Both the position numbers and the translations under genes were made by a program. This document shows, in pieces, positions 19,292 through 29,952 of a DNA stretch of 51,002 bases. The notes under the pieces were generated by a model. That model was given only the letters and a program-made list of their open reading frames with translations, had not been told where the DNA came from and made no database searches. The DNA is taken from the NCBI GenBank assembly GCA_021372785.1, contig JAJFTT010000072.1, positions 1-51,002 on the forward strand, given 5' to 3'. Numbering within the stretch: position 1 is the first letter of the stretch; each line of letters begins with the position of its first letter. Source of the DNA: Negativicutes bacterium. Lineage in GTDB: Bacteria > Bacillota > JAAYKD01.

Positions 19292-19693
19292 TTATTCCGC
19301 TAAAATTGCATCCACTTTCAAAGCAATTGCCGCGGCAATTTTCTCCATCATCGCATAGTGCTCCGGTTTTAAATCCCGGGCGGAAACGATTTTGCTGAGC
19401 GCCGCCTCACTGCCGATCACATCGGCTACCAGCAGGACATCTTTCACCGCTCCGCTGTATTTGACCGTGGCGCGTTCGGCACACGACTTGCTGCAGGCAT
19501 CCACTGCAATGCAGGGATACTTCCTGGCAAATTCACGTTCTTCTTCGCCGCCGGCGATATACAAGGGCAGGCAAAGCGTTGATACCCGACCCGGACGCAG
19601 TTTAGTCATCACATGACGAATCGCTAATCTGGATAAAGTACCGCCTAAGTATTCCTCTCCGCTGCAGGCGAGAACACCCACTTTTTCCGCCAT
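19292..19693 (-). CDS. DGC-type putative zinc-binding protein (third paralogue)
   Basis: This 133-aa protein shares the plan of its two neighbours: a start VGVLACSGEEYLGG with Cys10, then a Cys cluster CIAVDACSKSC (Cys61, Cys67, Cys71). Here the DGC triplet reads DAC. The DGC family is annotated as putative zinc binding; its biochemical role is not established. The ATG directly abuts the stop codon of the preceding gene, so translation is coupled. It is the last gene of the ArsR-headed operon. The three paralogues suggest ancient duplication with specialised Cys sets. Confidence 0.7.
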   Translation of the reverse strand: MAEKVGVLACSGEEYLGGTLSRLAIRHVMTKLRPGRVSTLCLPLYIAGGEEEREFARKYPCIAVDACSKSCAERATVKYSGAVKDVLLVADVIGSEAALSKIVSARDLKPEHYAMMEKIAAAIALKVDAILAE

Positions 19694-20095
19694 TTACTCT
19701 GCCTCCTGCTGGATTGCTTCGACTCGTGCCGCTACTTTGGCCGCCAATTCATCGCTGATCTGCCAGCCTTCCTCCGTCAGATCACTGCCGGTGCCGGGGT
19801 TCGCTCCCCGATGATTACGCATCTCATCCACGGAGCGAAATTTACCCCGCACGATACCACCGGCTGCTTCCAGACTGTGAAAAGAACACAAGGCAGCGCA
19901 GCCATCAATCGAAATGCAGTTTTTCCCACAAACTTTCGCCGTTACTTCCTCGTCTCCGGTCACAATATGCGCCAGACAAACCGTTTCAGCGTTTGCTGTT
20001 GCCAAATGCCCGCTGACTGCCAGGGCAGCTTCTCTCGCCATCAAGCCGTAGACTTTGCCGATCCCGCTGCAGGGTACCACAATTACTTTAGACAT
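19694..20095 (-). CDS. DGC-type putative zinc-binding protein (second paralogue)
   Basis: This 133-aa protein begins VIVVPCSGIGKVYG (Cys9) and carries CGKNCISIDGCAALC (Cys56, Cys60, Cys66, Cys70), with the DGC triplet at 64-66. The Cys residues could hold a metal, arsenic or a persulfide; none of these is shown. Its ATG overlaps the end of the DGC-GcvH gene by eight bases. It is smaller than the fusion upstream because it lacks the lipoyl domain. Confidence 0.72.
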   Translation of the reverse strand: MSKVIVVPCSGIGKVYGLMAREAALAVSGHLATANAETVCLAHIVTGDEEVTAKVCGKNCISIDGCAALCSFHSLEAAGGIVRGKFRSVDEMRNHRGANPGTGSDLTEEGWQISDELAAKVAARVEAIQQEAE

Positions 20096-20951
20096 GAAAC
20101 TCGTCCACCTTTCTTTTCAATACCGGAAAGTAACCTGCAAATTGGTGCAGCAGTTCCCGGTCATCTGAAAACGCCGTCAATTTCATTTCCAGAATCCAGC
20201 CTTTTTCATAGGGGCTTTGATTGATCAGCTCGGGTGTGTCCAGCAGCGTCTGATTGACCGCAGTAATCACACCGCTGACCGGACTGATAATTTCAAACAC
20301 GGCTTTGCCGGATTCGATATTTCCGGTTTCCTCAAATTGCTCCACTTGGCTGCCAAGCAGCGGCGGGGTAAAGTAAATGATATCAGAAAGACTATGCTGC
20401 ACAAAGTCAGTCACACCGATTCTTGCTTTGTCACCAAAAACATAGGCCCAAACATCATTCTCATTGAAATAGAATCCTGGATTATCGGGTATTTTAAAGA
20501 GGAACTTGTCTTTCGTATAAGTCTGATAATGCAGCTCGGCAGGGAATTGTAATGCTTCCTCAGCGGCAGCCGGCTGCGCGCCGCTGGCAGACCTACCTAT
20601 TTTTTCTGCGAGCTGGCCGGCAAATTCAATTTCTGCCGCCGTTAAGCGTAAACGATCGGACAATTCCAGACCATGGACTTTCGCTTCTTCGCTGATGTTG
20701 ATTTTCTCAGCAATTTTTAAGCCTTTTTCCGCTGCCAATTTGCTGGCACAGCGCGACGAACAGCCGTCGATCACCAAAAGTGGTTTTTCTTCTGTTCGCT
20801 TTTTATATTTTGCTTCGGCGACCCGGTAAAACACAGGGCAAATCAGTTCATTTTCTCCCGTTTCGCAAAGCTGCAGAGCCACTTCTCTGGCAACCGACCC
20901 GGCTGATTTATCCAAACCATTGCATGGCAACACCGCAAATGATCTAGCCAT
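20088..20951 (-). CDS. Fusion of a DGC domain with a GcvH-like lipoyl domain
   Basis: This 287-aa protein has two parts. Residues 1 to about 125 form a DGC domain (VLPCNGLDKSAG with Cys10; VIDGCSSRC with Cys64 and Cys68). Residues about 145-258 match glycine cleavage H protein: NESGKAV-like IESGKAVFEIISPVSGV, with Lys216 at the lipoylation position, then DTPELINQSPYEKGWILEMK. A swinging lipoyl arm on the same chain as a Cys-rich domain suggests transfer of electrons, sulfur or a thiol-bound group. No gcvT or gcvP genes are nearby, so a role in glycine cleavage is unlikely. The ATG at 20951 has GGGAGG upstream and overlaps the ferredoxin gene by eight bases. Confidence 0.8.
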   Translation of the reverse strand: MARSFAVLPCNGLDKSAGSVAREVALQLCETGENELICPVFYRVAEAKYKKRTEEKPLLVIDGCSSRCASKLAAEKGLKIAEKINISEEAKVHGLELSDRLRLTAAEIEFAGQLAEKIGRSASGAQPAAAEEALQFPAELHYQTYTKDKFLFKIPDNPGFYFNENDVWAYVFGDKARIGVTDFVQHSLSDIIYFTPPLLGSQVEQFEETGNIESGKAVFEIISPVSGVITAVNQTLLDTPELINQSPYEKGWILEMKLTAFSDDRELLHQFAGYFPVLKRKVDEFHV

Positions 20952-21237
20952 TGTCTGTTTCCTCCCGGCGCAGTTCTTTGATGGTAGCTGTTGTTGCTTT
21001 TTTATCGGGAAAAGAGATCGCATCCGGTCCGCAGGTCTTGGAGCAAGCCCGACAAAAAACAACGCAGTGTTCGGGATTCTGCACGATCAGTTTCGGAGTT
21101 GCATTTTCCCGCACGGCAAACACCTGATGCGGACAGAATTTATCGCATTCCAGACAATCATTGCATTTTGCCGGATCGATACGCGGCGCCCAATCAATTT
21201 TACTGCGTTCCACACCCATAAAAGTACTTTCGCTCAT
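20944..21237 (-). CDS. 2[4Fe-4S] ferredoxin-like protein
   Basis: This 97-aa protein has two cluster motifs: CNDCLECDKFCP (Cys25, 28, 31, 35) and CVVFCRACSKTCGP (Cys58, 62, 65, 69). The first gap in the second motif is three residues rather than two. It is probably an electron carrier for the HdrA-N-like and lipoyl proteins encoded on each side. The ATG at 21237 follows AGGAGG and lies one base after the preceding stop codon. An upstream ATG at 21261 would overlap the neighbour and lacks a site. Confidence 0.87.
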   Translation of the reverse strand: MSESTFMGVERSKIDWAPRIDPAKCNDCLECDKFCPHQVFAVRENATPKLIVQNPEHCVVFCRACSKTCGPDAISFPDKKATTATIKELRREETDNG

Positions 21238-21238
21238 C

Positions 21239-21616
21239 TTACAGTTCCTCCTCATAGCCAAGCTGGCTCAAGGCATCCCTGACCTTTTGAAAAGCTTTCT
21301 CGTTCGTCAGATCGCGGATATCAAGCATCAGACAATCCGTCTCCAGATTCATCCCGGCCTGCTGGAAGGCTTGCTTAAACATTTTCTTTTGCATATTCGG
21401 TGCGCAGGCCGCAATCACGACTTTACGCCTGGCTTGCAGGAAATCGGCTAAAAAGCGATCGCCATCCTCTTCGCAAAGCTGCGGGTGAATAAAAGCATAT
21501 TCGACCGGCAGTTCGATTCGCACCTGATTGATAAAATCCCAGATATCCATGGCACGAAAACCGGGACACTTGCCTGTGCAGACACACAGGATCAAACCAT
21601 ATCGTTCTTTTTCCAT
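21239..21616 (-). CDS. Stand-alone HdrA N-terminal-like cysteine protein
   Basis: This 125-aa protein resembles only the N-terminal domain of heterodisulfide reductase subunit A. It has LILCVCTGKCPG (Cys11, 13, 17), HPQLCEEDG (Cys48) and VVIAACAPNMQKKMFKQAFQ (Cys71), like the VVAACSPRMHEPTF block of HdrA, followed by LDIRDLTN in place of NIREH. The FAD and ferredoxin domains are absent. It may take part in thiol or disulfide chemistry with the adjacent ferredoxin. The ATG at 21616 has GGAGA six bases upstream. Confidence 0.7.
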   Translation of the reverse strand: MEKERYGLILCVCTGKCPGFRAMDIWDFINQVRIELPVEYAFIHPQLCEEDGDRFLADFLQARRKVVIAACAPNMQKKMFKQAFQQAGMNLETDCLMLDIRDLTNEKAFQKVRDALSQLGYEEEL

Positions 21617-21639
21617 ACTAAGTCTCCGCTTCTTTGTTG

Positions 21640-22002
21640 TTATTCTGGCTGACCAAATGGTTCGTCGCATTTCTTTGTGGAAGTACAGCTTATTTCAAGG
21701 CCGGACTGCCTGCCGGATTGCTCATTTTTTTCAGTTTTGACTGTGAATTTATCCCAAAACGTGATGATGGCAAGCGCCTTTTCCGGATCGACGCCATATA
21801 TCATCTTCTTACCGTCACGCCGCACGTTGACCAAACCACTGTCCGTCAAAAGCTTCATATGATAGGACAGGGTGGATTGGGTGAAGGAAAACGACTTCAG
21901 GATTTCACAGGCGCATAACTCTCCGCAGGAAATCAGATCAACAATCTCCAGTCTGGTTTGGTCGGCCAGTGCTTTAAACAGCAAGGCATAAGCTTTTTCC
22001 AT
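21640..22002 (-). CDS. ArsR-family repressor (second copy)
   Basis: This 120-aa winged-helix repressor has LFKALADQTRLEIVDLISCGELCACEIL and QSTLSYHMKLLTDSGLV. The C-x-C pair in ELCAC lies in the helix that binds As(III) in classical ArsR, so arsenite or a similar thiophilic ligand is likely. The C-terminal tail has two more Cys. It lies between arsM and the HdrA-N-like gene. The ATG at 22002 follows a GGGGGG stretch. Confidence 0.88.
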   Translation of the reverse strand: MEKAYALLFKALADQTRLEIVDLISCGELCACEILKSFSFTQSTLSYHMKLLTDSGLVNVRRDGKKMIYGVDPEKALAIITFWDKFTVKTEKNEQSGRQSGLEISCTSTKKCDEPFGQPE

Positions 22003-22047
22003 CACTTTTTACCCCCCCGCTCCCTTCGTCAGTATTTTGCCGGTAAA

Positions 22048-22836
22048 CTACTTGACTGCTTCAATCAGATAAGAAGCGACATAATCTTCGATTTTGCTGC
22101 CCGGAATCCAGGCGGCAATGATTTCTTTGCTGTTGTCTCTTGGCGTCAATACCGGCTCCGTGAAGCCGGCTCTTCGCAGCATGCTTTTCAATGTTTCAAT
22201 CGACTCGGCTCCGGCAATACAACCGGTAATTTTGCTTAAATTCTGTTTTGCCTCTGGCGGTAATTCGACAGTCGCCACCGAATCGGAAACAGATAATCTG
22301 CCGCCTTTTTTTAATACCCGGTAGGCTTCCTTGAACACTTGTTCTTTTTCCACGGACAAGTTGATCACACAATTGGAGATGATCACATCGACCGTCGCGT
22401 CAGCCACCGGCAAATGCTCGATTTCGCCTAAGCGAAATTCAACATTGGTATAACCGCTTTCTTTTAAATTCTTGCGCGCCAGTTTGATCATCGCAGGTGT
22501 CATATCAACGCCGATGACCAAACCTTGCTCGCCAACTTGCCGGCGAGCCAAAAAGCAATCGAAACCACCGCCGCTGCCTAAGTCAAGCACCGTTTCGCCT
22601 GGTTTCAATGCGGCAATCGCCAGCGGATTGCCGCAGCCGAGCCCGAGATTGGCCTCCGGCGGCACACTCTTTAAGTCTTCTTCGGTATAACCCAAACGCA
22701 AGGAGGCCTCTGTCCTGCCGATTGGGGTGCCATTGCAGTCGCAGCCGTTGCTGCAGCAGCCGGCGGCAGGTTGATTTTTAGCGATACTGCCGTATCTTTT
22801 TCGGATTGCTTCACGCACCGTTTCTTTGTCTTTCAT
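22048..22836 (-). CDS. arsM: Arsenite S-adenosylmethionine methyltransferase ArsM
   Basis: This 262-aa class I methyltransferase has VLDLGSGGGFDCFLA for SAM binding and the three Cys expected for As(III) coordination: Cys68 (LGLGCGNP), Cys156 (ISNCVINLS) and Cys206 (ITGCIAGA). The N-terminus holds an additional CCSNGCDC cluster, common in anaerobe ArsM. It methylates arsenite stepwise to methylated, partly volatile forms. The ATG at 22836 has AGGGAGGAA six bases away; the longer frame to 22914 overlaps arsR. No arsB, acr3 or arsC is seen nearby. Confidence 0.93.
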   Translation of the reverse strand: MKDKETVREAIRKRYGSIAKNQPAAGCCSNGCDCNGTPIGRTEASLRLGYTEEDLKSVPPEANLGLGCGNPLAIAALKPGETVLDLGSGGGFDCFLARRQVGEQGLVIGVDMTPAMIKLARKNLKESGYTNVEFRLGEIEHLPVADATVDVIISNCVINLSVEKEQVFKEAYRVLKKGGRLSVSDSVATVELPPEAKQNLSKITGCIAGAESIETLKSMLRRAGFTEPVLTPRDNSKEIIAAWIPGSKIEDYVASYLIEAVK

Positions 22837-22861
22837 TCCAAGTTCCTCCCTGATTGTCTTT

Positions 22862-23185
22862 TTAGCACTCGTCTTTCGCCGGTTGATGACAGACACAGTC
22901 ATCATGATCCCCACAGAATAAATGACAGAATTCCCGCAATTCCTGAAAACGCGTTTGATTTAAGGTATAGCGCATCCAAATGCCGTCCTTCTGACCCTCC
23001 ACCAAACCGCATTCCATCAGTATCTTCATATGGTAAGAAAGTGTTGGCTGACTGATCTGAAAACCCTCTAAAATTGCACAGGCACACATTTCTCCGCACG
23101 ACAGCATTTCCAGTATTTTCAATCTGGTTTCATCGGCCAGCGCCTTAAACACCGGCACAAATTCCGCATAAGAATATTTCATCAT
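22862..23185 (-). CDS. ArsR-family repressor (first gene of the operon)
   Basis: This 107-aa repressor has FKALADETRLKILEMLSCGEMCACAIL and QPTLSYHMKILMECGLV. It carries the same SCGExCAC metal-site segment as the second copy and a Cys-rich tail (CGDHDDCVCH). GGAGG lies eight bases before the ATG. It is the promoter-proximal gene and probably represses its own operon. The two ArsR proteins differ enough to have different ligands or operators. Confidence 0.9.
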   Translation of the reverse strand: MMKYSYAEFVPVFKALADETRLKILEMLSCGEMCACAILEGFQISQPTLSYHMKILMECGLVEGQKDGIWMRYTLNQTRFQELREFCHLFCGDHDDCVCHQPAKDEC

Positions 23186-24251: not shown

Positions 24252-24284
24252 AAAAAGCAGGCACTGGTCAGTGCCTGCTTTTTT
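24252..24284. terminator. Bidirectional terminator
   Basis: GCAGGCACTG (24257-24266) pairs with CAGTGCCTGC (24269-24278), with A residues before and T residues after. It ends the small membrane-protein unit and the convergent Dlt-like operon. Confidence 0.92.
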
Positions 24285-24308: not shown

Positions 24309-25271
24309 TTATTTTTTCAGGTAGTCCCCCAGGAATTTACTGAAAGAACCGGCGGTATCACCAAACATATGTCCGTCGTAATCCGAATAGCCGGCAAGGC
24401 TCTTGTCAAAACCTTCCAATGGGAGGAAATTGAAATTGTAATAGGTCAGACCGTATCTTTGCAGCATTTCTGAAAAATACAGGTATGCTTTTTGATAGTT
24501 TTCCGGATAAAGCTCCAATGTCTCCTGTGGGACAGGCGTAGTAAAAACCACCAGTTCAATGTCGTTTTCCCGGCAGAAGGCAACCATTTTATCAAAATAG
24601 CGATATGAATTACTCAGAATTTTCTTCTCATCCCAAAGAGAGACATTTTGAGACTTTGTTCTCTTGGTATCTTTGACAAATAAGAATCCCTCTTCTTTCA
24701 GCTGCTGATAAGAAAGGTCAAACGTAGCCAGACCGTAGTTTTTATAATTCTCCGTCTGTTTCAATTGCAGATTGGCCAGATTCGGCTGCCACTGCAATTG
24801 ATAATTGAACCAGGGAAATAAAACAGCTCTAAAATCCGCCGAAGTGATTTTTGCCAGAAAATATTCTGCTTTGATCCGGGACCAGGGCATATAATTAAAT
24901 AATTGGGTATAATAATAAGTATCTATATCCTTATTGATCCAATAAGTGGGATCCAGCTCATAAATCACACGTTCCGGTTTGTGATTTCTGCAGGCCTCTT
25001 GCAGAAGATAATAGGAATCTCTGGGATATTCTCCCCAGACACAGAGATTGGTGCTTTTCCGTCCTGTGATACTGTCTACAACCAAAGGATCCACAGCCGA
25101 AAAGCCATGCGAAGTGCCAAGAAATAAATCATCACAGGTCGTCGTTTCCAAATTATGCAGCTTAATTCTCATGATGTTATTTGGTATCAGGATGTAATCT
25201 AAAATGGAATTGAGCAGCAGGCAAACAGCGAAAAATGTCGCAAAGAGGATTACCCTTTTAGAATTGCGCAT
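24309..25271 (-). CDS. SGNH/DltD-like membrane-anchored acyl-handling protein
   Basis: This 320-aa protein starts with one TM helix (VILFATFFAVCLLLNSILDY). The extracytoplasmic part has FLGTSHGFSAVDP near the start, holding the nucleophile Ser block, and YSDYDGHMFGDTAGSFSKFL near the end, holding the Asp-x-x-His-like catalytic pair seen in DltD and AlgX-type SGNH proteins. DltD is proposed to act outside the membrane in the final transfer or proofreading. The ATG at 25271 overlaps the MBOAT gene by 14 bases; the longer frame to 25439 has no site. It is the last gene of the Dlt-like operon. Confidence 0.75.
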   Translation of the reverse strand: MRNSKRVILFATFFAVCLLLNSILDYILIPNNIMRIKLHNLETTTCDDLFLGTSHGFSAVDPLVVDSITGRKSTNLCVWGEYPRDSYYLLQEACRNHKPERVIYELDPTYWINKDIDTYYYTQLFNYMPWSRIKAEYFLAKITSADFRAVLFPWFNYQLQWQPNLANLQLKQTENYKNYGLATFDLSYQQLKEEGFLFVKDTKRTKSQNVSLWDEKKILSNSYRYFDKMVAFCRENDIELVVFTTPVPQETLELYPENYQKAYLYFSEMLQRYGLTYYNFNFLPLEGFDKSLAGYSDYDGHMFGDTAGSFSKFLGDYLKK

Positions 25272-26799
25272 AGATAAAGCCTCCTCCGGATGACGACAGC
25301 GTTCCGAATGCCGGCAAAGCATATAAAAGCAGCAAATAGACGAGGAAGCGGATAACAGCCGGTTTGGCGCGCAGAACTTCGCCAATCCGAACGCCTTTTT
25401 CCTGATAAAAACTGACGATAAAAAGCAAAAGACAGCCAAACAAGACGATATTGTAGAGGCGCGGTCCGATCTGGCTGACCCCTTTCAACATGAGAGTGCC
25501 ATCCCGGAAATCGGAAAAGTGAAAATCAGTCACCGTTTTCTGCATCAGGGCAAACGCATGCGTCAGATTATCGGCCCGGTCAAAATACCAGCTGATGTTG
25601 ACCAATAGAAAGGTTCTGAAAATCTGAAACAGATGCCAGACTGTTGATTTAGCAGGAATATGCCAAGCGCTTTTCCATTTCCTGGCGGTCGGCGTCATCA
25701 GTCCGCTGAAGCCGATGAGCAGTCCGTTATACAAACCATAGGCGATATATTTCCAGTTCGCGCCGTGCCAGACACCGACGATGAAAAAAACGATGATATT
25801 GGCCAGGCAAATCGGCAAAGCGCGCCCCAGATTTTTGCCCAAAAGTTTTCTGGCAAACTTGCCAAAGCGCAGCATCGTTTTGGATAGCGATAAGGGATAA
25901 AAGACATAATCCTTCATCCAGGTCCCCAGCGTAATATGCCAGCGATGCCAAAAATCCGCAATGGAAACCGCAAAAAAAGGCCGTTTGAAATTTTCGTCCA
26001 ACTCAATGCCAAACAGGCTGGCAGCCCCTTTGACGACATCCATACCGCCCGAAAAATCTCCGTAAAGCTGGATGGAATAGCCTAAAACGGCCACTAAAAT
26101 CGTTGTGCCGCTATATTTTTGATAGTTATTGCCCCAGAAAACCTCGCCAACCACCCGAGCCGCATTATCGGCGATCACCATTTTTTTAAAGAACCCCCAG
26201 AGAATCAGCTGCAGGGAACGCTCCATGCGCGGCCAGTTAAACTCATGCTCTTCATAGAGCTGACGCGCCAGCCGATCGAAACGGCCGATGGGGCCCTGCA
26301 GAATCTGCGGGAAAAAGGAGACAAACAAAGCAAACCGAAAGGGATTCTTTTCGGCTTCGTATTTTTCCCAATAGACATCGATGATATAACCTGCCGATTG
26401 GAAGGTATAGAATGAGATACCCAGCGGCAGCAGAAAGGCCTGGAAGGAAAGCTGCAGATCGAACAAACGATTCATGTTTGCCAGGGTGAAATTCGTATAT
26501 TTGATTACTGCAAGCATACCGAAATCCAGAAGCAGCATCAGCAGCAGGACGAAGCGTTTCCTTTTCTGTTTCAGCTTCTTTTCGGTTTGACTGTTTTTGA
26601 TCCGGTCCATCATTCTGCCAGCCAGATAGGATACGCCGGTAGAAAAAAGCAAAAAAGGTACTATTCTGAGGCCGGCAGACGCATAATAGACGTAACTGAA
26701 AAGCAGCAGCCATACCCATTGCCATTTTTTTGGTATGCGGTAATAGCCGATCACCGCAGCCAAGAGAAAGAGCGCAAACTTCAAAGAAACTAACGACAT
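25258..26799 (-). CDS. MBOAT acyltransferase, DltB/AlgI-like
   Basis: This protein of about 513 aa has around 12 membrane helices. The MBOAT signature is clear: NFKRPFFAVSIADFWHRWH, WMKDYVFYPL and GVWHGANWKYIAYGLYNG with the catalytic His. Such proteins move an acyl group from a cytoplasmic carrier across the membrane to a polymer or lipid. The adjacent carrier protein and adenylation enzyme make an aminoacyl group the likely cargo. ATG 26799 has GGAGG six bases upstream; the ATG at 26802 is only three bases away. Confidence 0.9.
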   Translation of the reverse strand: MSLVSLKFALFLLAAVIGYYRIPKKWQWVWLLLFSYVYYASAGLRIVPFLLFSTGVSYLAGRMMDRIKNSQTEKKLKQKRKRFVLLLMLLLDFGMLAVIKYTNFTLANMNRLFDLQLSFQAFLLPLGISFYTFQSAGYIIDVYWEKYEAEKNPFRFALFVSFFPQILQGPIGRFDRLARQLYEEHEFNWPRMERSLQLILWGFFKKMVIADNAARVVGEVFWGNNYQKYSGTTILVAVLGYSIQLYGDFSGGMDVVKGAASLFGIELDENFKRPFFAVSIADFWHRWHITLGTWMKDYVFYPLSLSKTMLRFGKFARKLLGKNLGRALPICLANIIVFFIVGVWHGANWKYIAYGLYNGLLIGFSGLMTPTARKWKSAWHIPAKSTVWHLFQIFRTFLLVNISWYFDRADNLTHAFALMQKTVTDFHFSDFRDGTLMLKGVSQIGPRLYNIVLFGCLLLFIVSFYQEKGVRIGEVLRAKPAVIRFLVYLLLLYALPAFGTLSSSGGGFIYAQF

Positions 26800-26834
26800 C
26801 ATCTGCCTCCGGATCTAGAAGCGTGGCTCAGACA

Positions 26835-27077
26835 CTACGCCTTAAGACGCTCTACCATTGCCCATAGAGCTTGGGCTGAGTTGAAATTAGCCGGTTTAAT
26901 ATCCATCGGCGTCACATAGACATCAAATTCTTCCTGCAGTTCGGCAACAATTGATAAAATAGCGAAAGAATCCAGAATCTGATTGTCAATGAGTGTATCA
27001 CACGTTGTATAATCCACCTCCGGATTGATGTCCTCCAGAATAGCGATGATCTTTTTCATTCCTTCTGAATGATCCAT
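26835..27077 (-). CDS. Acyl/aminoacyl carrier protein, DltC-like
   Basis: This 80-aa four-helix carrier has the phosphopantetheine site in NQILDSFAILSIVAELQEEF, where the Ser of DSF takes the prosthetic arm. The DSF motif, length and acidic character match DltC more than the fatty acid ACP (DSL). It is encoded between the decarboxylase and the MBOAT gene and should shuttle the amino acid thioester between them. GGGGA precedes the ATG. Confidence 0.88.
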   Translation of the reverse strand: MDHSEGMKKIIAILEDINPEVDYTTCDTLIDNQILDSFAILSIVAELQEEFDVYVTPMDIKPANFNSAQALWAMVERLKA

Positions 27078-27092
27078 GATGATTCCCCTCTC

Positions 27093-28268
27093 TCAAATCG
27101 AATTGAATGGATGGGTAGCAAGACTCGAGCGGACCAGACGGATTCCACCGGCCTGACTATAAAACAAAACGCCGGGAAGGTCGCGGCTCAAGAATAAGTA
27201 GATGCCTTCCGTGATCGAGTAAGCGCCTAATTTGCCAAAAACCAAGATATCACCCACGCTCAGCCGCCGTAAGGGGAGCTGTTTGACAATCACATCGCCG
27301 GCTGTACACAAGGAGCCGCAGATATGCCAATTCTCTAGCGGAGCGTCGTCCTGCTCTGCCAGATGCAGGATCGGCGGCGTTTTCATGGCCATGGTCTGCC
27401 CATAATAATTAATGTGATTGATGCCTCCGTCGATGATGCAGTAATTCTGGTCCTGATTCCGCTTACAATCAACGACGGAAGTGAGATAGTAACCGCAGAG
27501 CGCCGTCAGATAGCGTCCCATCTCCAGCATAATCTTGCCGCCGAAACGCATGTTTTGCAGCAAATCGCCGAGAGCAGCCAGCAGTTCTTTGTCATCAACG
27601 GCATCATCCTGCGCAAAATAAGGAATGTAGAGACCCGGTCCGTATTCGAGGTTCGTGAAGGTGATATGATAAGAATTCTGCAGCCGAATGCAGAGTTCAT
27701 CCAAATAGCGCAGTTCTTTGGCGAGCAGCGCGATCTTTTTTTTCTGCGTCCCGGAATAATACTGCAAACCGATCAGCTGCAGGCCGGGATACTCCTGCCG
27801 GCGGGATAAAATGCGGCAAATGGTTGCCTCATCCATCCCGAATTGATTGCCGCTGGTCAGGCGCAGGATGATTTTGATGGTTTTCTGCTGTTCCCCGGCA
27901 CAGCTCGCCAGCAATTGCAGCTGTTGTTCCGATTCGGCTGTAAAGGTCACAGCCGTGTCATAGCTGCGCAATACGCGTTCCATTTCGGCACGCTCTTTAT
28001 TCACGCCGGATAAAACGATTTGCGCTGCCGGGATGCGGTTCCGCTCGCAAATGGCGAATTCACCCGGAGAGCAAACCTCAAAACGGTCGACTAAGCCGTT
28101 CAGGTGATCAACTAAAAAGGGATTGGCTTTCATCGCAAAGCAAAGCCCCGCCGCGCCGTCCAATTGTTGGCGGATCATGGTCAGTCTTTCCGTCAATTCA
28201 TCCAGTTCGAAAACATAAGCCGGCGTCGGGAATTCCTGCGCAATCCGCGCTAACAGGCTGCGTTCCAT
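27093..28268 (-). CDS. Fold-type III PLP-dependent decarboxylase in a Dlt-like operon
   Basis: This 391-aa enzyme belongs to the alanine racemase/diaminopimelate decarboxylase fold. Lys47 in CFAMKANP is the PLP lysine. FEVCSPGEF, LEMGRYL, the Cys in CGSLCTAGDVI and GAYSITEG match decarboxylases rather than racemases. The usual HIGS segment reads GLQYYSGTQ, a form I associate with carrier-linked decarboxylases such as BtrK of butirosin synthesis. It starts two bases after the adenylation gene with AAAGGAG. The likely reaction is decarboxylation of an amino acid, free or bound to the carrier. It has no counterpart in a standard dlt operon. Confidence 0.82.
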   Translation of the reverse strand: MERSLLARIAQEFPTPAYVFELDELTERLTMIRQQLDGAAGLCFAMKANPFLVDHLNGLVDRFEVCSPGEFAICERNRIPAAQIVLSGVNKERAEMERVLRSYDTAVTFTAESEQQLQLLASCAGEQQKTIKIILRLTSGNQFGMDEATICRILSRRQEYPGLQLIGLQYYSGTQKKKIALLAKELRYLDELCIRLQNSYHITFTNLEYGPGLYIPYFAQDDAVDDKELLAALGDLLQNMRFGGKIMLEMGRYLTALCGYYLTSVVDCKRNQDQNYCIIDGGINHINYYGQTMAMKTPPILHLAEQDDAPLENWHICGSLCTAGDVIVKQLPLRRLSVGDILVFGKLGAYSITEGIYLFLSRDLPGVLFYSQAGGIRLVRSSLATHPFNSI

Positions 28269-28270
28269 TT

Positions 28271-29785
28271 TTAACTCCTTTTCAAAAGATTCCGCAAAGC
28301 CCCCCGGTCAATTTTCCCGTTCCTGCTGATTGGCATGGTTTCCACCCGCAGAAGGGTATTGGGCAGCATATAAACGGGCAATTCGGTTTTCAGCTGCCGG
28401 AGGATCAAACCTTTGGTGATATCGCCTTCATAGAAAGCGACAATTTTATTCGTCTCCGCCTCAAAGATGCAGCAGGCTCGTTTGATTTCCGGGATTCGAT
28501 CCAGACAAGTCTCGATTTCACCCAATTCAATCCGCTGCCCCATGTGTTTGATTTGAAAATCCTTTCTTGAAGCAAAACAAAATTCGCCGCGCTCATTAAA
28601 ATAAGCCAGATCGCCCGTCCGGTATATCAGTTCCAGAAAATGCGGATTCAACGGATTTTGCACGAAGGCTTTTTCGGTTTGTTCCCGGTTGTTGTAATAA
28701 CCCAAAGCGAGCGCCGTTCCGGAAACACAGAGTTCACCCTCCTGCTGCTGCGCTGTGATCAGACGGTTGTTTTCATCCAAAAGCATGACCTTTTCATTGG
28801 GAAACGCTCGGCCCATGGGCAGAACTTCACCCGGCTGAAACTCACGGTCAATGATATAATAGGTGCAGTTGCAGGTGATCTCGGTAGGCCCGTAGAGATT
28901 GACAAATAACGCTTTGGGGTAGACCGCCCGCCATTTATTCAGATGCTTAATCGGCATTACCTCGCCGCTGAATAAAACCTTTCTGATATCCGCCGGGATG
29001 CGATATTCAAAGGCATTCAGCGTGGTCAGGATACACAGAGCGGACACCGCCCAAATCAGCGTCGTCACTTTTCTGTCCGCCAGATAATCAAGCAGCTGCA
29101 TCGGCATGGAAAACAGACGGCGCGGAATGATGACCATCGTGGCTCCGGTTTTCAGCGTGGTATAAATATCTTTGACCGAAACATCAAAATCAAAGGGTGC
29201 CTGATTACCGATCACATCTTGCTCTGAGATTTGAAAGAGATCGGGAAAGTAATCCATAAAATCGATGACGGAGCGATGGCTGATCACCACACATTTGGGA
29301 ACACCGGTGGATCCGGAAGTAAACATGCCATAGAGCGGATCAATGTCCAGCGCCTGCTTTCGGCGCGCCGCCAAGAGCATTTCATCCGGCTGATCCGGCA
29401 GCAGCTCTTCGAACGCAAGGATTTCTCCCCTAAAATCCAAACAGGCCAAAGCGTTTTGATTGGTCTTGTCGGTGATGATGACAGACGCTTCCAGCGCCTT
29501 GACAATCTGATTCAAGCGGGTGACCGGCTGCTTCACATCCAGCATGACATAAAAACAACCGGCTGACAGAATTCCCATGAACAGGCTTATCGCTGCCACG
29601 CTTTTTTCCATGAAAACAGGCACCGCAGAACCGGCAGGGATTTTATTCGCCAAAGCACTGCCAATCCTCTGCGCCCGCTGCCATAACTCCCCGTAGGTAC
29701 AGAAGGATGTTTCGTCTTCAAATGCTTTTTTATCCGGAAACCGTGCTGCCGAACGCTCTAAATACTCCAGAACACTCTTCGTCAT
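28271..29785 (-). CDS. Amino acid adenylation enzyme, DltA-like
   Basis: This 504-aa AMP-forming ligase charges an amino acid onto the carrier protein. Core motifs are MFTSGSTGVPK (A3), FDFDVSV (A4, Asp for the amino group), NLYGPTEITCNCTY (A5), YRTGDL (A7), GQRIELGEIE (A8) and NGKIDR (A10). It has stand-alone DltA size with no fused carrier domain. In DltA the segment FCGEVLP carries a Cys that I recall as important for D-Ala selection; here it is FSGEVMP. That, and the adjacent decarboxylase, argue for another substrate. It is the first gene of the operon. Confidence 0.88.
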   Translation of the reverse strand: MTKSVLEYLERSAARFPDKKAFEDETSFCTYGELWQRAQRIGSALANKIPAGSAVPVFMEKSVAAISLFMGILSAGCFYVMLDVKQPVTRLNQIVKALEASVIITDKTNQNALACLDFRGEILAFEELLPDQPDEMLLAARRKQALDIDPLYGMFTSGSTGVPKCVVISHRSVIDFMDYFPDLFQISEQDVIGNQAPFDFDVSVKDIYTTLKTGATMVIIPRRLFSMPMQLLDYLADRKVTTLIWAVSALCILTTLNAFEYRIPADIRKVLFSGEVMPIKHLNKWRAVYPKALFVNLYGPTEITCNCTYYIIDREFQPGEVLPMGRAFPNEKVMLLDENNRLITAQQQEGELCVSGTALALGYYNNREQTEKAFVQNPLNPHFLELIYRTGDLAYFNERGEFCFASRKDFQIKHMGQRIELGEIETCLDRIPEIKRACCIFEAETNKIVAFYEGDITKGLILRQLKTELPVYMLPNTLLRVETMPISRNGKIDRGALRNLLKRS

Positions 29786-29923
29786 CGTTATCTCCCCGCC
29801 GCCCGGATTCTCTGTATGATCCGCCGGCCTTTTCCTTTGCTTACGAATTCACCATAAGCTCTCACACAGTCATCTTTTTTTAGAGTGCAGATCATCACTT
29901 CACTCGCTTTTCTTATTCTTACT

Positions 29924-29952
29924 ATAGTATCATTGACTGTTCTGCCTGTCAA
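29924..29952 (-). promoter_or_regulatory. Promoter of the Dlt-like operon
   Basis: On the minus strand TTGACA (29952-29947) and TACTAT (29929-29924) are 17 bp apart. The 5' leader to the first ATG is about 130 nt; no riboswitch was recognised in it. Confidence 0.75.

Follow-up and report, generated by a model that had tools for sequence, protein, structure and literature searches.

We describe a five-gene operon that appears to be a conserved and so far undescribed variant of MBOAT-SGNH envelope acylation. Judging from its sequence, it probably makes an omega-amino acyl group and exports it onto an envelope polymer. The operon lies in a stretch of 51,002 nucleotides (contig JAJFTT010000072.1 of a Negativicutes bacterium, assembly GCA_021372785.1), subsequently referred to as the window. 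No description of this gene combination was found in open-access papers (subscription papers were outside the search), and these papers also held nothing relevant on GABA, beta-alanine or D-Asp on wall polymers. The features of the locus, with their basis in brackets, are the following:

29924-29952, minus strand: promoter-like TTGACA-17-TACTAT with a TG before the second hexamer (consensus match only)
28271-29785, minus strand: A, stand-alone amino acid adenylation enzyme, DltA-like, pocket code DVKILSLCNK (TIGR01733, pocket code, fold)
27093-28268, minus strand: K, fold-III (alanine-racemase-fold) PLP decarboxylase, BtrK-like (domains, BtrK 2j66 at E=3.2e-33, conserved residues)
26835-27077, minus strand: C, phosphopantetheine carrier protein, DltC-like, Ser37 (profile match, conservation)
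25258-26802, minus strand: B, MBOAT acyltransferase with a DltB-like core and a fused C-terminal acyl-shuttle hexapeptide FIYAQF containing Tyr511 (PF03062, invariant residues, motif according to PMC12148441)
24309-25271, minus strand: D, DltD-like SGNH protein with an N-terminal membrane helix and S54/D297/H301 (conservation, AlphaFold model)
24252-24283, either strand (symmetrical): terminator-like hairpin of 14 pairs just downstream of D (sequence)

A preliminary description had proposed five coupled genes of a Dlt-like operon, and we could confirm that the operon is real. All five ORFs are present, open and co-directional, with tight gaps of 2, 15, 32 and -14 nt in the order A-K-C-B-D. The start of D is the ATG at 25271, within the 3' end of B; a longer D ORF is purely mechanical. 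The promoter-like site agrees with the consensus at 10 of 12 positions and is the top of 11 matches in the region. Position 29952, where the operon had been taken to end, is the first base of its TTGACA. Base composition does not mark the operon as foreign, since its GC content of 0.477 is near that of the flanks (0.493–0.499). No DltX-like ORF was seen in the region read around the operon. A 35-codon ORF just upstream of A (29787-29894, minus strand) was rejected as a DltX when read by eye, as it has neither a hydrophobic helix nor the hexapeptide; it could be a leader peptide.

The coupling, proposed from this one locus, is conserved in other genomes. A genome scan with K returned 80 loci (41–55% identity), mostly in Lachnospiraceae and also in Erysipelotrichaceae, Oscillospiraceae and others, and A, K and C occur together in nearly all homologous loci. 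The gene call recovered K at 77 loci. At 59 of these, A, K, B and D share a strand: 44 loci show the order A-K-C-B-D and six the order B-D-A-K-C, while in nine the ORF caller missed C. Pairwise protein distances across 50 loci correlate at r=0.92 for A-K, r=0.95 for B-D and 0.62–0.82 for the other pairs, compared with permutation maxima of 0.16–0.26 among the five proteins. The distribution of the system is sporadic, because in an even sample of the phylum K was present in only 4 of 398 genomes, which belong to different families. It was absent from the genomes compared within the same family (one) and elsewhere in the order (two); the order-level and class-level scans comprised 4 and 2 genomes, so that prevalence at these levels is uninformative. 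A gene of the response-regulator/sensor cluster lies at most three genes upstream of K in 21 of the 77 loci. In Lacrimispora and others, genes of this type stand directly upstream of A-K-C-B-D (L007:3007-5034, where the response regulator was confirmed), suggesting a stress-controlled envelope modification.

The adenylation enzyme A scores above the cut-off for amino acid adenylation (TIGR01733) and below that of the DltA equivalog TIGR01734 (277.9 bits, cut-off 559.85). Alignment to LgrA yielded the pocket code DVKILSLCNK, of which seven of the ten positions (D235, V236, K239, S301, C330, N331 and K517, in what we take to be the GrsA numbering) are invariant in 74 homologs. DltA proteins above the curated cut-off are found in 3 of 29 operon-positive genomes and in none of the other 26. 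Two of these true DltAs read DLMVLCTVAK at the same positions, while in the third, that of S. suis, the aligned residues are DLMTYDAVAK. The DltA-type contacts to D-Ala, made by Leu, Met and Cys (PMC11253843), are not found in A. As judged from this pocket, which differs from DltA at K239, S301, V236 and their neighbours, A-K-C-B-D is not a D-alanine system. No other DltA was found in this genome.

Which substrate would fit instead? In VinN, where 3-methyl-Asp is bound in the manner of a beta-amino acid, position 301 is Ser and position 236 is taken by a bulkier residue, according to a review (PMC11253843). The same review notes that engineering of TycA for beta-Phe fixed the exchange A236V. 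V236 and S301 of A resemble such beta-amino-acid pockets, pocket codes being poor predictors for unusual substrates, and K239 could plausibly pair with a carboxylate, which would suit an acidic substrate. The shortened beta13-beta14 loop of VinN is not seen in A, which aligns to LgrA there without a gap. A fold search with A ranked many A domains about equal and gave no help on specificity, and microcystin D-Glu/iso-Asp pocket codes, sought as a further comparison, yielded nothing usable. In an A-anchored sample of the phylum, the code DVK..S.CNK occurs in 4 of 15 A matches, all four with K, while the other 11 have neither code nor K. The odds of this co-occurrence are 1/1365 if the 15 matches are independent, although not all of them represent independent lineages.

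K matches the N- and C-terminal domains of Orn/DAP/Arg decarboxylases. Among solved structures it is nearest to BtrK, the next non-BtrK match in the PDB following at 4.6e-24. The motifs reported in the preliminary description (K47, GSLCTAGD, GAYS and YSGTQ) are all there. Conserved residues are K47, T174, C321, T322 and Y350; the PLP lysine, the catalytic cysteine (C321) and the tyrosine are invariant in 78 homologs, and K thus retains the Lys and Cys of BtrK-type enzymes. The catalytic Cys is followed by Thr in 76 of the 78 homologs and by Ser in two. Here K has LCT, as do BtrK and SbnH, whose substrates carry a blocked distal group, whereas the Aquifex DAP decarboxylase has ICE, with Glu at this position. 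An identity with LysA was ruled out, as K stays below the cut-off of the LysA/DAP decarboxylase model TIGR01048 (175.8 bits, cut-off 297.9). Its score on the exosortase-A-associated decarboxylase model TIGR03099 is about equal (174.9 bits, cut-off 478.45). A distant homolog, 24% identical to K, exists separately at C4.

Decarboxylation on a carrier has experimental precedents in VinN/VinO and BtrI/BtrK (PMC11284099; PMC7857480). BtrK decarboxylates glutamyl-S-BtrI to GABA-S-BtrI (PMC7857480), and VinO requires the carrier thioester, VinN accepting 3-MeAsp and rejecting its decarboxylated product (PMC11284099). If K acts on the carrier, its substrate should be a dicarboxylic amino acid loaded via the distal carboxyl, since on chemical grounds an alpha-carboxyl bound as thioester could not be removed. 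The preliminary description had an amino acid loaded and then decarboxylated. The resemblance of K to a carrier-acting enzyme speaks for this order of events; however, not any amino acid would do, and the pocket code fits the dicarboxylic, distally loaded substrate that would be needed.

C is a weak DltC/AmcB-like carrier (32.5 bits on the DltC model, below the cut-off of 68) in which Ser37 is 100% conserved. B exceeds the cut-off of the MBOAT family PF03062 (58.7 bits vs 27) and falls below that of the DltB equivalog TIGR04091 (164.7 bits, cut-off 375). Its residues H289, H346 and Y511 are invariant, Tyr511 being present in 65 of 65 aligned proteins. The C-terminal end of B reads FIYAQF; a strict FXYXXF is found in 22 of 64 proteins, and variants such as LIYAGF occur. 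In PatA, the Tyr of a C-terminal FXYXXF hexapeptide is acetylated and the acetyl group then passes to PatB; DltX bears the same hexapeptide motif for DltB, and MBOATs with a fused hexapeptide are said to use acyl-CoA without a carrier (PMC12148441). The DltX of an S. suis genome that also carries the A-K-C-B-D operon ends in GGFIYNEF. Classical DltBs in three operon-positive genomes lack the motif at their C-terminus and are shorter than B by about 100 residues. From the motif fused to B, the invariant Tyr511 and the motif-free classical DltBs, we infer that B is an MBOAT fed by the dedicated carrier and bearing its own shuttle peptide.

D matches no family in Pfam or NCBIfam. In the PDB, the best match to its AlphaFold model (pLDDT 93, pTM 0.90) is DltD (E about 5e-5). 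The sole invariant residues of D are G52, S54 and H301, and D297 is nearly so, which gives the SGNH triad S54/D297/H301. The locus hence combines sequence features of MBOAT-SGNH envelope acylation: an MBOAT with conserved His, a hexapeptide with the shuttle Tyr and a partner with a Ser/Asp/His triad.

The identity of the substrate, its decarboxylation on the carrier, its export and the direction of transfer are what we infer from these assignments. A would activate an acidic amino acid at its distal carboxyl, aspartate being the most likely candidate and glutamate the second, and load it on the phosphopantetheine arm that C carries. K would strip the alpha-carboxyl from the loaded substrate, leaving beta-alanyl-S-C (or GABA-S-C). 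B would carry the acyl group across the membrane onto its own Tyr511, from where D would accept it on Ser54 and esterify an extracytoplasmic polymer, which would thereby gain a positively charged primary amine. We consider this scheme probable as a whole; within it, we put aspartate somewhat short of an even chance and glutamate at a clearly weaker one, the rest going to other substrates.

As target, the preliminary description had suggested teichoic acid or another polymer. A classical teichoic acid is doubtful, as neither PF00884 (the sulfatase family including LTA synthase) nor PF04464 (TagB/TagF glycerophosphotransferases) has a match in the genome, the assembly of which is 97.5% complete. 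LpxC has no match in this assembly either, which makes LPS unlikely. Because these matches are absent, classical polyglycerol-phosphate LTA and LPS are both improbable targets here. Another envelope polymer is likelier, possibly a secondary wall polysaccharide, peptidoglycan or a glycolipid. The earlier interpretation as a whole is partly supported.

The same group could be exported if K decarboxylated free Asp to beta-alanine, or free Glu to GABA, and A then loaded the product on C. IdnL3 of incednine biosynthesis decarboxylates free beta-glutamate, loading coming after (PMC11284099), and the invariant V236/S301 would also fit a beta-amino acid without a carboxylate. However, the invariant K239 would then face no carboxylate, BtrK as the nearest PDB relative of K acts on the carrier, and VinN refuses the decarboxylated acid (PMC11284099), so that we consider this order of events unlikely. 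Distinctly unlikely is meso-diaminopimelate (or another diamino diacid) as substrate, in which case K would produce lysyl-S-C on the carrier and the envelope would be lysylated. K does share ancestry with DAP decarboxylase, as its TIGR01048 score indicates, but the Thr (rarely Ser) after its catalytic Cys, in place of the Glu of the Aquifex enzyme, is that of BtrK and SbnH with their blocked distal group, and the sister racemase operons described below point to an Asp/Glu-type substrate.

That the operon yields a small beta-amino-acyl metabolite, either secreted or retained in the cell, with no polymer decorated, would agree with the occurrence of A-K-C as a portable module without MBOAT/SGNH genes near sugar or flagellar genes. 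It seems very unlikely, though, given that 59 of the 77 loci pair A-K with a shuttle-Tyr MBOAT and a DltD-like protein, and that known relatives of such MBOAT/SGNH proteins acylate envelope polymers (PMC12148441). We give next to no credence to K as an alanine racemase that feeds D-Ala to an ordinary Dlt pathway. The N-terminal barrel of K does match PF01168, a domain of alanine racemases (E=3e-10); the decarboxylase N- and C-terminal domain matches are stronger, though, and together with the invariant decarboxylase-type Cys they led us to reject a racemase. The pocket of A, unlike DltA at K239, S301 and neighbouring positions, also argues against it. The assignment of the PLP protein as decarboxylase-type in the preliminary description is thereby upheld.

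Decarboxylation on the carrier, followed by export, can also be compared with sister operons. Dlt-like A-C-B-D sets without K and with an Asp/Glu-type racemase are present in two Anaerocolumna genomes and in genome G234 (L121:3967-9632, L123:3909-9190, L145:1099-8179). The racemase scores 179 bits on TIGR00035 (cut-off 93) and matches PF01177. These operons have homologous A, C, B and D, but a racemase in place of the decarboxylase and the pocket code DAKCAGLGMK, in which K239 is kept while V236 is replaced by A and S301 by G. In G234, an asparagine-synthase-like gene separates C-B-D from the racemase-A pair. For them we predict that an envelope polymer is decorated with D-aspartyl (or D-glutamyl) groups; no description of such operons was found in the open-access papers searched. 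The sister operons with K239 and the co-occurrence of code and K in the phylum sample make Asp a better candidate than Glu in operons with K, without settling the choice.

At nine loci A-K-C has no MBOAT nearby, and the carrier product can therefore have other uses. A-K-C without MBOAT/SGNH lies beside a FliD-like gene (L024:6464-10434) and beside a DegT aminotransferase gene (L030:6356-10610), and A-K beside a polysaccharide pyruvyl transferase gene (L036:2779-6878, no carrier confidently called). Their pocket codes are that of A in the window save at variable positions. Given these neighbours, A-K-C appears to act as a portable module supplying an omega-amino acid bound to a carrier. A further Dlt-like variant combines an A with the code DAKLFALVDK, a carrier and an MBOAT (L147:5522-9676, L148:4642-8775); in L148, where this was checked, a GNAT acetyltransferase gene lies between A and C.

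With Dlt (DltA-DltX-DltB-DltC-DltD) the operon shares an adenylation enzyme, a carrier, an MBOAT and a DltD-like SGNH protein, and presumably the carrier thioester as acyl donor. Unlike standard dlt operons, it contains a decarboxylase, its A, C and B all stay below the Dlt model cut-offs, the D-Ala pocket residues are replaced, the order is A-K-C-B-D and the MBOAT itself carries the hexapeptide, which in Dlt resides on DltX. PatA/PatB of peptidoglycan O-acetylation and other MBOAT-SGNH pairs likewise have their own C-terminal hexapeptide (FIYANF in NgPatA) and an SGNH transferase, but use an acyl-CoA donor without a carrier protein (PMC12148441), whereas here the dedicated carrier would be the donor. 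Distal-carboxyl loading and on-carrier PLP decarboxylation, predicted here, are found in BtrI/BtrK of butirosin and VinN/VinL/VinO of vicenistatin biosynthesis (the Asp-activating FlvN also belongs here); those systems, however, serve antibiotic biosynthesis with soluble end products and have no MBOAT/SGNH export. The exosortase-A-associated pair (TIGR03098, TIGR03099) also unites an AMP-forming ligase with a fold-III decarboxylase in a polysaccharide context, but A (184.4 bits, cut-off 592.35) falls below the respective cut-off, as K does.

Surface charge, autolysis and the resistance of cells to cationic peptides depend on amine decoration of the envelope, for which the routes known so far employ amino acids like D-Ala, Gly or Lys. 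We see an even chance that the operons represent a widespread Gram-positive class, in which beta-alanylation or GABA-ylation starts from a carrier-bound acidic amino acid, the carrier-fed MBOAT has its own shuttle, a D-aspartyl system exists as sister, and one chassis swaps its amino-acid module and thereby changes surface charge. If so, gut Lachnospiraceae and relatives, most of which lack a classical DltA among those sampled, would use another carrier-built amine, and natural variants would be at hand for probing amino acid choice. The system would also be an exception to the stated rule that fused-shuttle MBOATs use acyl-CoA (PMC12148441).

The sole other MBOAT of this genome (L001:87-2628) has FLYFRF at its C-terminal end, and a protein that looks AlgX-like by eye comes next; the two probably form a second MBOAT-SGNH pair of the acyl-CoA type. 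Elsewhere in the window, positions 19292-23185 on the minus strand encode two ArsR-type regulators, a methyltransferase resembling ArsM when read by eye, a ferredoxin-like protein, DGC-domain proteins and a fusion of DGC with GcvH. This cluster may be a lipoyl-protein system related to metalloids.
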